In this document: in pieces, positions 31,398 through 53,804 of the stretch | How positions within the stretch are numbered: the first letter of the stretch is position 1 | Layout: every line of letters starts with the position of its first letter | Assembly: GCA_020845635.1 (NCBI GenBank) | Contig: JADLFI010000039.1 | Span: 1-64,000 of the forward strand | Length of the DNA: 64,000 nt | Source of the DNA: Bacteroidia bacterium | GTDB taxonomy: Bacteria; Bacteroidota; Bacteroidia; UBA4408 | Direction of reading: 5' to 3' | Translations under genes and position numbers: made by a program | Notes under the pieces: model-generated | Told to the model about the DNA's origin: nothing | Seen by the model: the letters and a program-made list of their open reading frames with translations, nothing else | Database searches by the model: none

Positions 31398-33227
31398 TTA
31401 ATGTTCTTCTTCGCTTTCTTCTCCGGGAGCTAAAGGAACTGTTTGAGGAACAAAATCTTGGTCTTTACCCGGTTTGCTGTAGTCATAAGCCCAACGATGT
31501 ACGGTAGGCAACTCTCCGGGCCAGTTTCCGTGTAATTGCTTATCAATAGGAGCAGTCCACTCAATAGTGTTACTATTCCAAGGATTCTGGCTGGATTTTT
31601 TACCACGATACATACTGTAGAAGAAGTTAAACAAGAAAAGTATTTGTGCTAAACCACCTATTATCGCAAAAATTGTCATCATTACGTTTATACTTTGTAA
31701 GCCATCAAATAATGCAAATGCTTCATTGCTGTAATAACGTCTTGGAACACCACCAAACCCTAGGAAGTGCATTGGAAAAAATACACCATAAACGGCAATA
31801 AATGTTATCCAAAAATGGGCATATCCTAATTTGTTATTCATCATACGTCCAAACATACGAGGAAACCAATGATAAATACCGCTAAACATACCAAATACAG
31901 CCGAAGCTCCCATTACCAGATGGAAATGGGCAACAACGAAATAAGTGTCGTGTACGTTAATGTCAAGTGTTGAGTTAGCCAAAATAATACCTGTTACCCC
32001 ACCAGAGATAAAGGTAGAAACTAAGCCAATGGCAAAAAGCATAGCCGGTGAAAACTTCAATGTTCCTTTCCACAGCGTGGTAATATAATTAAATACTTTA
32101 ACGGTTGAAGGGATTGCAATCATTAATGTAGTAAATGCAAACACCGAACCTAAGAAAGGATTCATACCGGTAATAAACATGTGATGCCCCCAAACTATTA
32201 TTGAAAGGAAACCAATAGCAACCATTGAACCCACCATAGCTCTATACCCAAAAATAGGCTTACGGCTCATCGTTGAAATAATTTCAGAAGTTATACCTAG
32301 TGATGGCAATAATACAATATAAACCTCAGGGTGACCTAAGAACCAAAACAAGTGTTGGAATAATATTGGACTACCACCGGTTTGCTCTAAAGCCTGTCCG
32401 CTGATAAAAATATCTGAAAGATAAAAACTAGTACCTAATGATCGGTCGGCAATTAGCAAAAGAACACCGGCAAACAACACAGGGAAAGTTAATAAACCAA
32501 CCACAGCAGTAATTAAGAAACTCCAAATAGTTAAAGGCAATCTTGACATGGTCATGCCTTTGGTTCTAAGATTAAGAATAGTTACAATATAGTTGATTGA
32601 TCCTATCAAAGAACCCGCCACAAAAAATATCATACTTATCAACCACATATTCATTCCCAAGCCTGAACCCGGCATAGCTTCTTGAATGGCACTAAGAGGA
32701 GGATATACTGTCCAACCGGCAGCAGCAGGTCCTGTTTCAATAAACAAAGAGGCAAACATAATTATACTTGAAATGCCATACAACCAAAACGAAATCATAT
32801 TCAAGAAACCTGAGGCCATATCCCTGGCACCTATTTGGAAAGGAATTAACAAATTACTGAAAGTCCCACTGAGTCCACCGGTTAATACAAAGAATACCAT
32901 GATAGTACCATGAATAGTAACCAATGCCAAGTACATATTAGGGTCTAAAACCCCATCGGGTGCCCATTTCTTGCCTAAGAAAAATTCTAAAATCCCGAAT
33001 CCGTGCCCAGGCCATGCCAACTGAAGACGAAAGAAGATAGAAAGCATCATGCCCACTACTCCCATAAATATAGCAGTTACTAAAAACTGCTTCGAAATCA
33101 TTTTATGGTCGGTGCTAAAAATATATTTTGACCAAAAACTTTGTTCTTCATGATGATGATGATCATGTGCATGATTATCATGTTCGTGCGTATCATCGTG
33201 GCTTAAAATATTTGCTTGAGAGCTCAT
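31398..33227 (-). CDS. coxA: Cytochrome c oxidase subunit I (aa3 type)
   Basis: The 609-residue inner-membrane catalytic subunit carries about 12 helices. The low-spin haem histidine is in TIHGTIMVFF, the Cu-B/Tyr site is WFLGHPEVYIVLLPSLG, the other Cu-B ligands are WGHHMFITGM, and the haem ligands of helix X are in HDTYFVVAHFHLVMG. The glutamate of GHPEVY marks the A1-type D-channel. The subunit reduces oxygen to water and pumps protons. The first 30 residues are unusually His-rich (HEHDNHAHDHHHHEE). It is the last gene of actABCDEF-coxBA, 68 bases after coxB, and is followed by a terminator. Subunits III and IV are encoded about 19 kb away. Confidence 0.97.
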   Translation of the reverse strand: MSSQANILSHDDTHEHDNHAHDHHHHEEQSFWSKYIFSTDHKMISKQFLVTAIFMGVVGMMLSIFFRLQLAWPGHGFGILEFFLGKKWAPDGVLDPNMYLALVTIHGTIMVFFVLTGGLSGTFSNLLIPFQIGARDMASGFLNMISFWLYGISSIIMFASLFIETGPAAAGWTVYPPLSAIQEAMPGSGLGMNMWLISMIFFVAGSLIGSINYIVTILNLRTKGMTMSRLPLTIWSFLITAVVGLLTFPVLFAGVLLLIADRSLGTSFYLSDIFISGQALEQTGGSPILFQHLFWFLGHPEVYIVLLPSLGITSEIISTMSRKPIFGYRAMVGSMVAIGFLSIIVWGHHMFITGMNPFLGSVFAFTTLMIAIPSTVKVFNYITTLWKGTLKFSPAMLFAIGLVSTFISGGVTGIILANSTLDINVHDTYFVVAHFHLVMGASAVFGMFSGIYHWFPRMFGRMMNNKLGYAHFWITFIAVYGVFFPMHFLGFGGVPRRYYSNEAFALFDGLQSINVMMTIFAIIGGLAQILFLFNFFYSMYRGKKSSQNPWNSNTIEWTAPIDKQLHGNWPGELPTVHRWAYDYSKPGKDQDFVPQTVPLAPGEESEEEH

Positions 33228-33295
33228 AATATATTACTGTTATTTAATTACGATTGTGTGTTTTATTGAGAGTAAAAATTATTAAATATAAAAAA

Positions 33296-34327
33296 TTAGT
33301 TTGAAGCTAATTTGATTTCTTCGTTTTGATTATTGTTTTGAGCCGACATATATTTTTTCTTAAATGTGTCTTGCTCTCTTAACCATTCTTTATAATCTTT
33401 TTCAGAATCTACAATAATATTCATTTGCATATTCCAGTGAGTTGCTCCACAAATTTTGTTACAAAGCAATAAATAGTCAAATTCCGGGTTCTTGGTTTTT
33501 TCGCGCATTTCAGCAGTGGTAATTGTAGGTTTAAAATGAAATTGGGTAACCATTCCGGGAACCACATTCATTTGTGCCCTAAAGTGTGGCATGTAGGCAC
33601 TATGAATTACATCTTTTGAACGAAAATACATAATAACAGTTTTCCCTACCGGAATATGTAATTCTCCATTTACCAATTTATCGTCCCATGCAGCTTTATC
33701 AGTAGTATCAAGCGCTAGAGGATTCATATCTCCGGTAAGACGGTAATCAAATTTTCCTAAAGTATTATCTCTACCGGCATAACGAGCTGTCCATTTAAAT
33801 TGTTCCCCAAAAACTTCCATAACAATAGCATCTTTGTGATCGGCAGGGGTAGTAATTTTATTCCATAATGATAATCCATATACTGAAACAACGGTTAAGA
33901 ATGCAGCAGGAATAATTGTCCACAATAGTTCTAATTTTGCATTATGTGGAAAATAAAATGCAGTGCGGCCTTTTTTAGCATAGTATTTATATGCAAAAAA
34001 GAATAAAAGGAAATTAACTACTACAAATACAAAAGTAATGATATAATAGTTAAAAGCATTTAATTTGTCCACTTCTTGACCATGCTCAGAGGCTGCTTCA
34101 GGCAATATATGATCCCAATAATGATTTGTTACCCAAGCACAGAAAATAAGGAAAGAGATGATAAAAACCATCATCATATTACTATTAAACCTATTTTCCG
34201 AATCAGGAATAGGATCTTCATCAGGAGAACTTCCTTTTAGTGTTGAAGACAATTCATATACTTTAATCAGGTTAGCAAAAGCTACAACGCCTAGTACTAA
34301 GGTTACAATGGTTAAAAATGAAATCAT
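33296..34327 (-). CDS. coxB: Cytochrome c oxidase subunit II (CuA subunit)
   Basis: The 343-residue product has three predicted N-terminal membrane segments and a periplasmic cupredoxin domain. The CuA site is complete: the early histidine in DVIHSAYMPHFRAQ, then CNKICGATHWNM with both cysteines, the second histidine and the methionine. This subunit takes electrons from cytochrome c or directly from the alternative complex III. The extra first helix (MISFLTIVTLVLGVVAFANLI) is common in Bacteroidota. It sits between actF and coxA on the same transcript. Confidence 0.96.
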   Translation of the reverse strand: MISFLTIVTLVLGVVAFANLIKVYELSSTLKGSSPDEDPIPDSENRFNSNMMMVFIISFLIFCAWVTNHYWDHILPEAASEHGQEVDKLNAFNYYIITFVFVVVNFLLFFFAYKYYAKKGRTAFYFPHNAKLELLWTIIPAAFLTVVSVYGLSLWNKITTPADHKDAIVMEVFGEQFKWTARYAGRDNTLGKFDYRLTGDMNPLALDTTDKAAWDDKLVNGELHIPVGKTVIMYFRSKDVIHSAYMPHFRAQMNVVPGMVTQFHFKPTITTAEMREKTKNPEFDYLLLCNKICGATHWNMQMNIIVDSEKDYKEWLREQDTFKKKYMSAQNNNQNEEIKLASN

Positions 34328-34368
34328 GTTTATTAATTATATATTCAAAATTATTACTTTTCTTATTC

Positions 34369-49887: not shown

Positions 49888-50169
49888 TTAAGGGTGCAAT
49901 TGTTTTTTAGAGAGCAAATTCTTAAATAATTGCCACTTTTGAATAATATCATTCTTAAAGAAATATCCCATAATACCCATAAACAATAGGTAAGGGATAA
50001 GCATTAAGTATAAAATACCCGAATTAATACCACGTGCCACATTACCTCCTGCATCTAAATTAGAGGCAGGGCCTAAGCGGCATTGGGAGCAACCTTGTGC
50101 TAATACAGCTTCCGAGAAAATCATCAGAATTGCTATGATAACAATTAAAAAGAGTATTCTAGATTTCAT
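49888..50169 (-). CDS. Small CxxC membrane protein of the oxidase cluster
   Basis: The 93-residue product has an N-terminal signal-like helix ending SEAVLAQ, directly followed by GCSQCRLGP (Cys27 and Cys30), a short polar piece with GGNVARGINSG, a second helix (ILYLMLIPYLLFMGIMGYFF) and a short basic tail. Small proteins like this often follow the DUF420 gene in Bacteroidota oxidase loci. The CxxC just outside the membrane could bind copper or act in thiol exchange, which is inference. It is the last gene of the coxC cluster, 24 bases after the DUF420 gene. Confidence 0.72.
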   Translation of the reverse strand: MKSRILFLIVIIAILMIFSEAVLAQGCSQCRLGPASNLDAGGNVARGINSGILYLMLIPYLLFMGIMGYFFKNDIIQKWQLFKNLLSKKQLHP

Positions 50170-50193: not shown

Positions 50194-50724
50194 TTATTTA
50201 GAATAATAGGGAGATATCATAAGATATACAATAACACCGGTAATAGTAACGTATAGCCATATTGGGTATGAAAATCGTACAATTTTCTTATGTTTTTCTA
50301 TTTTCATTTGCAATCCATAGTAAAACGACATTAAAATTAAAGGTAAAACAAAGGCAGCAAGAATAATATGCGTTATTAATATAAATAAATATACCCCGCG
50401 CAAAGGATTATCTTTCGGAAAACTTGTTTCTTGAGCCAACCAATGATAGGTTAGATAGGATACAAAAAAGATACATGACAAAATAAAAGCAGTTATATTT
50501 AGTTTTTTGTGCAACTTAACATTTTTGTGTTTTACATAATAAAAGGACACGAGCAGTATAATAGTGCATGTAGCATTTATACTTGCGTTTAGTTTAGGTA
50601 ATTGGTAAATAAAACTGGGTATATTTTCAGGCACCGGTAAAATTCTTTTATTTAATACCATTACGGCTGCAATAACCAATACTGATAAAAGAATAATTAT
50701 TCTGGTAATTAGTTTATCATTCAT
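50194..50724 (-). CDS. DUF420-family membrane protein (CtaM-like)
   Basis: The 176-residue product has four to five predicted membrane helices. It shows the DUF420 pattern: PKLNASINATCTIILLVSFY, VKLHKKLNITAFILSCIFF and YLFILITHIILAAFVLPLIL, with the conserved histidines in helix contexts. DUF420 proteins sit in oxidase gene clusters and are linked to oxidase assembly or activity (CtaM in Firmicutes). It lies one base after the SCO-like gene. Confidence 0.85.
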   Translation of the reverse strand: MNDKLITRIIILLSVLVIAAVMVLNKRILPVPENIPSFIYQLPKLNASINATCTIILLVSFYYVKHKNVKLHKKLNITAFILSCIFFVSYLTYHWLAQETSFPKDNPLRGVYLFILITHIILAAFVLPLILMSFYYGLQMKIEKHKKIVRFSYPIWLYVTITGVIVYLMISPYYSK

Positions 50725-50725
50725 A

Positions 50726-51415
50726 TTATTTCGTACTTTTTAGTTTTCCATACTCTGAAGCGAGCACAAGAATTTCATCGCTCATTCTATTGGTTTCTTT
50801 CAAATAAACCCCTTTATAATGCCCTCTAATTTGTTTTTGTTTATCAACTAAAATAAGCGAAATATTTTCATACATACTTTCATCTAAGTTTTGTATAAAT
50901 CCGGGGGTTTTAAATATTTCTAACAAACTATCGGCTTGTATTGGAGATACCAAGTTTACTATTTTCTTATCTGCATGAATCTCGTAGGCGAAATGTTTTA
51001 AACTTTTTAAAGAATCGTTAGGGAGCTCGGTCATTAAAATGATAAACTGAAAATCATTTTTGTAGGCTTTTAATTTTTTTTGTAACGTGTAAAGCTGAGC
51101 TGCAAGCTGATTTGCTTGGGTTGAATTGTATTTGACTACACCCAAAACAAAAAATTTGTCATTTAAATTAACTGATGATACAGTATCATTGTTTTGATTA
51201 ATGAACGAAAACTCGGGTAAAGTATAAAAGGAAGAGTCAGCGGAGTTTGGCTGTATAGTTGCCGGACCGTAATGGGGCAATTTAATAAATATGCCTGAAT
51301 TGGCCTTAGTAAAAGGCTTGCGTATTACAAAAAAATATAATCCCAAACACAAAAGTGATGGGATTATAAAAACAAAAAAAGTAATAAGTTTCTTATTTAC
51401 TGTACCTTTACTCAT
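50726..51415 (-). CDS. SCO1/SenC-like protein without the copper-binding cysteines
   Basis: The 229-residue product has one N-terminal membrane anchor (ITFFVFIIPSLLCLGLYFFV) and a thioredoxin-like domain in the position SCO takes in cox clusters. The SCO fold is suggested by YTLPEFSFINQNNDTVSSVN, FQFIILMTELPNDSLKSL and DKQKQIRGHYKGV. The CxxxC that should follow the first strand is absent: residues 88-104 read FFVLGVVKYNSTQANQL. The only cysteine is Cys23 in the anchor. It therefore cannot deliver copper by the usual CxxxC-His site. It lies between coxD (37 bases) and DUF420 (one base). Assignment rests on position and weak likeness. Confidence 0.68.
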   Translation of the reverse strand: MSKGTVNKKLITFFVFIIPSLLCLGLYFFVIRKPFTKANSGIFIKLPHYGPATIQPNSADSSFYTLPEFSFINQNNDTVSSVNLNDKFFVLGVVKYNSTQANQLAAQLYTLQKKLKAYKNDFQFIILMTELPNDSLKSLKHFAYEIHADKKIVNLVSPIQADSLLEIFKTPGFIQNLDESMYENISLILVDKQKQIRGHYKGVYLKETNRMSDEILVLASEYGKLKSTK

Positions 51416-51452: not shown

Positions 51453-51884
51453 TTAGTGTTTAGAGGCTTCTTTGGCAGGGGTATGAGATTGGTGAGTATG
51501 TTTGGTTAAGTTTTTATCAATAACATAACGACCGCTTTTTGAATAAGTACCTTCTCCGGGGTCAACCAAGAAAACAAGATACAAAATTAAAATAGCAAAA
51601 GGACCTAACACCGTCCATTTAAATGATTTAACTTCATCACCCAAATGCATAAATGACATCACAATGTATGCCGCTTTAACAATCGTAAGACTGATAAAGA
51701 ATACCATTAAGAATGTTCTCCCTAAATTCCAGGCATGAGCTTGAAAACCAACAACCAGTTCAACTAAGGTAACGATTAATAATATCCAAAACACCTTCCA
51801 AATTGCTTTACGCACTTTTTTTCCATGTTCCTCATCATGAAGAGCCATTTTTTCGTATGAAGGATAACCATCATTAAATTCCAT
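51453..51884 (-). CDS. coxD: Cytochrome c oxidase subunit IV (prokaryotic, CoxD-like)
   Basis: The 143-residue product has three predicted membrane helices (VFWILLIVTLVELVVGF, FLMVFFISLTIVKAAYIVMS and VLGPFAILILYLVFLVD) with the MHLGDE motif between the second and third, typical of bacterial oxidase subunit IV. The N- and C-termini are hydrophilic; the C-terminus is His/Lys-rich (KHTHQSHTPAKEASKH). It stabilises the oxidase. It follows coxC by 42 bases. Confidence 0.9.
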   Translation of the reverse strand: MEFNDGYPSYEKMALHDEEHGKKVRKAIWKVFWILLIVTLVELVVGFQAHAWNLGRTFLMVFFISLTIVKAAYIVMSFMHLGDEVKSFKWTVLGPFAILILYLVFLVDPGEGTYSKSGRYVIDKNLTKHTHQSHTPAKEASKH

Positions 51885-51926: not shown

Positions 51927-52652
51927 TTACAATAAATAGAAGAAAGTAAACACAAATACCCAAACTAAGTCCACAAAATGCCAGTATAATCCAACTTTTT
52001 CAACCATTTCATAATGCCCTCTTTTTTCGTAAGTTCCTCTAATTACATTTATATAAATAATAACATTTAGCAAAACCCCGGTAAATACGTGAAATCCGTG
52101 AAATCCGGTAATAAAGAAAAAGAAGTTGGCAAAAACAGTATGACCATACTCATTGTACGTCATATTGGCGCCATGCACAACCTGATCAACAAAAACGCCA
52201 TCAACTAAAACATTTCTAACAGCTCCTTCTGGTGTTCCAACAATAAAGTTATACCACTCCCATGCTTGTGAGCCTAAGAATAAAGCTCCTCCAATAATGG
52301 TAAGTAACATCCACATAGCCACTTGATTTTTCCTGTTTCTGTGACCTGCTTCAACGGCTAATACCATAGTTACTGAGCTCATAATCAGGATAAAGGTCAT
52401 TAACCCCACATAAGCCAATGGAATACTTCCATCATAGAATGGAAAATGATGAAAAACATGTCCCGGATCAGGCCAAATGTCAGTATATTTATGGCGCATA
52501 AAGCCATAGGCGGCTAATAAACCCGAAAATGTAAAGGCATCAGAAAGCAAGAAGAACCACATAAACATTTTACCGTAGCTCATACCGAATGGAGAAACAC
52601 CTCCTCCACCCCAATTGGCTTTAGATTGCGTAGAAACTGCGTGACTTGACAT
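51927..52652 (-). CDS. coxC: Cytochrome c oxidase subunit III
   Basis: The 241-residue product has five or more membrane helices and the subunit III motifs YGKMFMWFFLLSDAFTFSGL, VLAVEAGHRNRKNQ, TGFHGFHVFTGVLLNVI and the terminal GLYWHFVDLVWVFVFTFFYL. Subunit III keeps subunit I stable and helps proton uptake. It starts the second half of the oxidase genes, which are about 19 kb from subunits I and II. An upstream TACTTTTA on the minus strand (about 52681-52688) is a near match to a -7 box. Confidence 0.95.
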   Translation of the reverse strand: MSSHAVSTQSKANWGGGGVSPFGMSYGKMFMWFFLLSDAFTFSGLLAAYGFMRHKYTDIWPDPGHVFHHFPFYDGSIPLAYVGLMTFILIMSSVTMVLAVEAGHRNRKNQVAMWMLLTIIGGALFLGSQAWEWYNFIVGTPEGAVRNVLVDGVFVDQVVHGANMTYNEYGHTVFANFFFFITGFHGFHVFTGVLLNVIIYINVIRGTYEKRGHYEMVEKVGLYWHFVDLVWVFVFTFFYLL

Positions 52653-52812: not shown

Positions 52813-53319
52813 CTATCTTAATATTTCATAGTTACCTACTTCATAACGTATAGGTGCTTGCAAATCGTTTTTAATGTGTACCCGAGCTTCAAAGGCTGTA
52901 TTGACAGTTAATCCGGGTAAATAAACACGAGCAGGATATACTTTATTAAACTCGTCACTTGGCACCAAGGAGTAAATAAATTTTACCTTTATAGTGTCTC
53001 CTTCATGAGGTTTATTCTCAACTCCATATCCACAACTGCGCCATTGGGTTATTACCACATCGGCTACACAGGGGTATGATTTACAAGGTTCTTGGTTTTC
53101 ATCTTTGTTGGTAAGATAAATATTTAAAACATAAGCCTGCATCATACAAGTTCCGGGTTCAACAGGGTATGCCATTGGTGATGTGGGAGTTTCGGTATTT
53201 GTATTGCTTTGATGGGAAGTGGTGGAAGCTATGCTTGACTGTTGATTTTTGCATGCAACTCCAAGGGATGCAAAGGCAATCAATACAAAGGTTGATAATA
53301 TTTTGAATAAGGTACTCAT
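52813..53319 (-). CDS. Cysteine-containing lipoprotein of unknown function
   Basis: The 168-residue product has a lipoprotein signal (LIAFASLGVAC, Cys23), a Ser/Thr/Asn-rich linker of about 30 residues, and a beta-type domain of about 110 residues. Four or five cysteines are in the domain (GTCMMQA, EPCKSYPC, RSCGYG), and could form disulfides or bind a metal. No named family is recognised. Its ATG overlaps the stop of the upstream YkgJ-type gene by four bases (ATGA), so the two are translationally coupled. Confidence 0.72.
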   Translation of the reverse strand: MSTLFKILSTFVLIAFASLGVACKNQQSSIASTTSHQSNTNTETPTSPMAYPVEPGTCMMQAYVLNIYLTNKDENQEPCKSYPCVADVVITQWRSCGYGVENKPHEGDTIKVKFIYSLVPSDEFNKVYPARVYLPGLTVNTAFEARVHIKNDLQAPIRYEVGNYEILR

Positions 53320-53804
53320 GATTGATTATTTTCGTTTAGGTGTGTAAAAATCTTGGCCACTGCAGGACAAACTAAGGTATTTTTAAGGGTAATATCCAAA
53401 ATTTGTACCATTCTTTTTCTATTGGTATGCGGATACTCGCGACAAGCCGTAGGGCGGTCGTTATATATGGTACAATAATTTTCATGATCTAAAAAAAAGC
53501 AAGGCGCACTTTTCAGAACATAGTCATTATCTTCATCAACTTTTAAATATTTATCAATAAAAGCAGATGCTTTCATTTTAAGAGCTTTGGCAGCACGTTC
53601 AATATCTTTCATGTAAAAAATGGGGCTGGTAGTTTTACAGCAATTGGCACACTTTAAACAATCTATCTCTTCAAAAACTTTTTCATGAAGTTCATGAAAA
53701 ATATTATCTAAAAGGGCTGTTTTTTTTCGCTTAAATTTTTCAACTATTCTTTTATTCTCTTCATATTTTTTCAAGGAAATTAAAAGATATTTTTGATAAA
53801 TCAT
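53316..53804 (-). CDS. YkgJ-family cysteine cluster protein
   Basis: The 162-residue product shows the YkgJ/UPF0153 pattern: CLKCANCCKTTSPIFY near residue 50, then APCFFLDHENYCTIYNDRPT and ACREYPH. The eight or so cysteines are expected to hold an Fe-S cluster or zinc. The biochemical role of the family is unknown. The stop overlaps the start of the lipoprotein gene by four bases. A CAAAGATA at 53859-53866 (TATCTTTG on the minus strand) is a possible -7 box 55 bases upstream. Confidence 0.87.
   Translation of the reverse strand: MIYQKYLLISLKKYEENKRIVEKFKRKKTALLDNIFHELHEKVFEEIDCLKCANCCKTTSPIFYMKDIERAAKALKMKASAFIDKYLKVDEDNDYVLKSAPCFFLDHENYCTIYNDRPTACREYPHTNRKRMVQILDITLKNTLVCPAVAKIFTHLNENNQS

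Follow-up and report, generated by a model that had tools for sequence, protein, structure and literature searches.

The cytochrome oxidase (cox) cluster of the window, the whole stretch of 64,000 nucleotides of a Bacteroidia genome analyzed here, encodes a protein whose sequence, gene position and predicted fold identify it as a true SCO homologue, but which has none of the three copper ligands of the family (both cysteines of the CxxxC motif and the distal histidine). SCO proteins normally carry copper to cytochrome oxidase. The ligand-free protein, referred to below as SCOx, is not peculiar to this genome: the loss recurs across the class, and the ligand-free copies are under purifying selection.

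SCOx is encoded by an open reading frame with an ATG start and no internal stops (Table 1). As stated in the preliminary description, the gene lies between coxD and a DUF420 gene and CoxB retains a full CuA motif (H...LLCNKICGATHWNM). A single base separates the SCOx stop codon from the start of the downstream DUF420 gene, whose product corresponds to CtaM, a protein needed for the aa3/caa3 oxidase in B. subtilis and the aa3 oxidase in S. aureus (PMC9145763). A scan for promoters and terminators around SCOx gave counts at or below chance.

Table 1. SCOx, its notable positions and the surrounding cox genes, in window coordinates.
Feature	Position	Strand	Description
SCOx, ligand-free SCO-like protein	50726..51415	-	229 aa, N-terminal membrane anchor and thioredoxin-like domain
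SCOx membrane anchor, residues 8-31	51323..51394	-	single predicted helix, carries C23
SCOx residues 88-104	51104..51154	-	position of CxxxC copper/redox motif, cysteine-free
SCOx E183	50867..50869	-	column of the copper-ligand histidine, by alignment
coxC, oxidase subunit III	51927..52652	-	PF00510
coxD, oxidase subunit IV	51453..51884	-	PF03626
DUF420/CtaM-like membrane protein	50194..50724	-	oxidase biogenesis; PF04238, 148.6 bits
Small CxxC membrane protein	49888..50169	-	conserved after DUF420; by sequence and relatives
coxB, oxidase subunit II	33296..34336	-	complete CuA motif; by sequence
coxA, oxidase subunit I	31398..33233	-	PF00115

Similarity to SCO1/SenC proteins extends over the domain of SCOx. 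A profile built in this analysis from 58 SCOs of relatives, most of them intact, matched it with an E-value of 2.2e-26, and phmmer searches of PDB sequences matched it to Sco of B. subtilis (BsSco, 2.6e-4) and B. anthracis (8.9e-4). The AlphaFold model of SCOx (mean pLDDT 74, pTM 0.67), which is based on an alignment of intact SCOs and is thus biased toward the Sco fold, has two Sco structures, 4hde and 1xzo, as its top matches (Z 15.3 over ∼160 residues). Peroxiredoxins and ResA-like proteins follow closely, because the fold is shared. Sequence and gene position support the SCO identity independently of the model. The preliminary description of an SCO-like protein with a thioredoxin-like frame thus holds, and both structure and profile place SCOx inside that fold. 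The search with PF02630 that it had proposed did not detect SCOx up to an E-value of 10, nor did any other Pfam or NCBIfam family match.

Residues 88–104 of SCOx (FFVLGVVKYNSTQANQL) contain no cysteine, and the only cysteine of the protein, C23, lies in the membrane anchor; both observations agree with the preliminary description, to which we add the loss of the third ligand. By alignment, E183 replaces the distal histidine of intact relatives. The single predicted anchor helix typical of SCO copper chaperones is present, and C23 is retained in all six ligand-free proteins from the family of the window's genome. Comparison with close relatives, which had been suggested as a check, showed that orthologues in three congeners and two further genomes of the family are also ligand-free, full-length and at the same locus, and a sequencing error or frameshift masking the cysteines was rejected on this evidence. 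Two other genomes of the family retain CxxxC and a histidine. That SCOx lies outside the SCO family, or owes its missing cysteines to sequencing error, is scarcely credible: the silence of Pfam and NCBIfam would fit such a reading, but the SCO profile, the structures, the gene position and the orthologues concordantly refute it.

The extent of the loss was assessed by drawing genomes of the class with DUF420 as anchor, reading their cox neighborhoods and assigning cysteine and histidine states by alignment columns. The gene order coxD–SCO–DUF420 is maintained across many families. An SCO was present in the cox cluster of 115 genomes from 49 family codes. By the threshold used, 68 of these contain only intact copies in the cluster, some of which (for example G018, G096 and G124) have a more divergent ligand-free copy upstream that falls below the threshold. 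The sole SCO of the cluster is fully ligand-free in 21 genomes from 11 families, has CxxxC without the histidine in seven and has a single cysteine in two. Thirteen genomes from five families contain a tandem, in which a ligand-free copy lies directly upstream of an intact one; in two further pairs, the upstream copy has CxxxC without histidine, and G008, whose proximal SCO was read from the ORF itself, is also a tandem case. Partial losses amount to ∼11 of the 115 genomes. One in-cluster ORF (G024) was too divergent and was left out of the counts.

On a tree of CoxC and DUF420, which is independent of the SCO proteins (whose own tree has long branches), at least 17 changes between intact and altered single copies are required, a parsimony count that carries no direction. 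We read these changes as losses, since it is implausible that three ligands were gained again and again. Genus g25 displays the erosion in a series from intact through half-eroded to ligand-free: two species are intact (CKTIC and CKSIC, each with the histidine), and other members have ENKSIC or SCNTIP without the histidine, or no ligands at all. In-cluster SCOs that keep CxxxC and have lost the histidine were also noted individually (L158, L231, L092, L099, L147, L148, L154, L171 and L227); such copies may represent dithiol-only variants that do not carry copper.

All 33 checked genomes whose sole in-cluster SCO is altered (the window's genome included, one doubtful case excluded) encode an intact SCO elsewhere, defined as one with CxxxC and a histidine ∼85 residues further on. 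Among 24 control genomes with an intact in-cluster SCO, a second strong SCO was found in 15 and was absent from nine. Fisher's test gives p = 1.5e-4 when genomes are counted and 0.002 when family codes are counted, with the qualification that members of one family are not independent samples and that the families are a coarse grouping.

The intact SCO of the window's genome is encoded on another contig (C3, L001:1327-1998), away from the cox cluster and flanked by radC-like and murQ-like genes. It shares ∼27% identity with SCOx and differs from it in keeping the CQSIC and HTQN motifs; it scores 91.8 bits with the Pfam model. A third, more distant SCO (CAGVC) is located on contig C55 next to a second heme-copper oxidase, which has a short subunit II of its own (L002 / L086). 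The PF02630 search of the genome lists just these two proteins. The third SCO has an apparent C-terminal membrane helix. The preliminary description had concluded that copper must be delivered by another protein or that SCOx has another role, and had proposed a search for a second SCO or a PCuAC protein. The intact unlinked SCO is a concrete candidate, on its sequence, for the alternative copper source. The search for PCuAC (PF04314) in this genome found no match, and PCuAC was rejected as the supplier.

The other half of that proposal, another role for SCOx, is also favored, since purifying selection acts on the gene despite the absent ligands. Pairwise dN/dS (Nei-Gojobori) is 0.19 for the ligand-free pair of the window and G001, 0.089 for the pair G164/G084 and 0.06 for the ligand-free tandem copies of G103/G071; in other ligand-free pairs dS is saturated and pN is well below pS, and with saturation affecting many comparisons some of the values of about 0.06–0.19 are rough. 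The evolutionary rate of SCOx within the window's genus exceeds that of CoxC, CoxD and DUF420, which could also be compatible with weak constraint. Positions conserved within the genus comprise the anchor, the LP.YGP and F.F.NQ motifs and a C-terminal D..IRG.Y...E..L..EY tail; the active-site shell is not conserved.

SCOx shares with the SCO1/SenC chaperones (BsSco/YpmQ, PrrC and human SCO1; PF02630) a membrane anchor, a thioredoxin-like domain, a gene beside those of the oxidase, and a similar profile and fold; it differs from them in lacking CxxxC and the distal histidine and in being missed by the Pfam model. Copper-ligand-free SCO homologues are already known in plants. HCC2 of Arabidopsis has neither CxxxC nor the histidine; COX does not require it, and under oxidative stress it gives partial rescue of a yeast sco2 sod1 strain (PMC3971200, PMC6307045). 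By analogy, HCC2 is a parallel to SCOx: each is an SCO paralogue that lacks all three ligands, in a host that retains an intact paralogue. However, HCC2 is mitochondrial, belongs to a lineage of its own, retains five cysteines at other positions and is unnecessary for COX, whereas SCOx has a cysteine-free soluble domain and is encoded in a cox operon. No report of a ligand-free SCO in bacterial cox operons was found in the literature searched; a prior mention in other work on SCO genome analysis is possible.

We give about even chances to the reading that SCOx is a former chaperone that lost its site beside an intact paralogue and was kept as a non-copper partner of the oxidase. Descent from a typical in-cluster copper chaperone, with loss of the copper and dithiol site in a lineage where an intact unlinked paralogue performs that chemistry, is shown by the homology, the loss itself, the intact paralogue, the recurrence and the selection. 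SCOx would then be kept as a membrane-anchored binding partner in the biogenesis or stability of an aa3/caa3-type oxidase, where it would most likely dock close to subunit II and CtaM, with the intact SCO loading CuA in trans. We infer this partner function from the retained scaffold, the gene position and the selection; the cox gene order could, however, reflect ancestry rather than function. A broader proposal, that Bacteroidota-type bacteria repeatedly turned the cox-operon chaperone into a non-metal accessory subunit or scaffold, either of the oxidase or possibly of the complex that the oxidase forms with alternative complex III, and left copper delivery to an unlinked SCO, seems unlikely. 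For the window itself, we consider it rather unlikely that SCOx, instead of being an assembly factor, is a stoichiometric accessory subunit, whether of the oxidase alone or of the oxidase in complex with alternative complex III: the anchor, the conserved scaffold and the operon shared with oxidase subunits would suit a subunit, but an intact chaperone occupies the same spot in many relatives.

The main rival, which we nonetheless consider quite unlikely, assigns SCOx to a copper-independent defense against oxidative or redox stress, a role already proposed for plant HCC2, and treats the cox position as merely ancestral. The partial rescue of the yeast strain by the ligand-free and COX-dispensable HCC2 (PMC3971200, PMC6307045) points in this direction, as does the match of the predicted fold to peroxiredoxins and glutathione peroxidases; yet thiol chemistry is impossible in the soluble domain of SCOx because it contains no cysteine, and the gene remains in the cox operon across many families. 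Slow decay of a gene made redundant by a second SCO would account for the association with an intact copy and for the pace at which SCOx outruns its neighbors in the genus. We disfavor it as improbable, given the low dN/dS, the full length of all ligand-free ORFs in the window's genus and the persistence of ligand-free tandem copies in families f28, f37 and f54. That residues elsewhere in SCOx bind copper or a different cofactor is very improbable. A few histidines and methionines are left, and one of them, H147, is retained throughout the six ligand-free family members, but intact SCOs also have a histidine near this position, and no new conserved cluster of His, Met or Cys was seen.

Three modes of action come into question for SCO: copper transport, thiol reduction and, in addition, plain docking. 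In these bacteria the chemistry disappeared repeatedly and the scaffold stayed at the oxidase locus, which makes a docking role directly testable. For annotation, a gene named as an SCO family protein by its position is not evidence of a copper chaperone, and the functional SCO may be unlinked from the cox cluster.

Upstream of coxC, a predicted cysteine-rich lipoprotein of no known Pfam or NCBIfam family (52813-53319, minus strand) adjoins a PF03692 CxxCxxCC protein (53316-53804). The small CxxC membrane protein immediately after DUF420, with the motif QC[ASV]xC[RK], matches no Pfam or NCBIfam family; a homologue that has the CxxC was found in 85 of the 85 genomes with a match, from 37 family codes, and the protein is a candidate thiol protein of these clusters that lacks a name.
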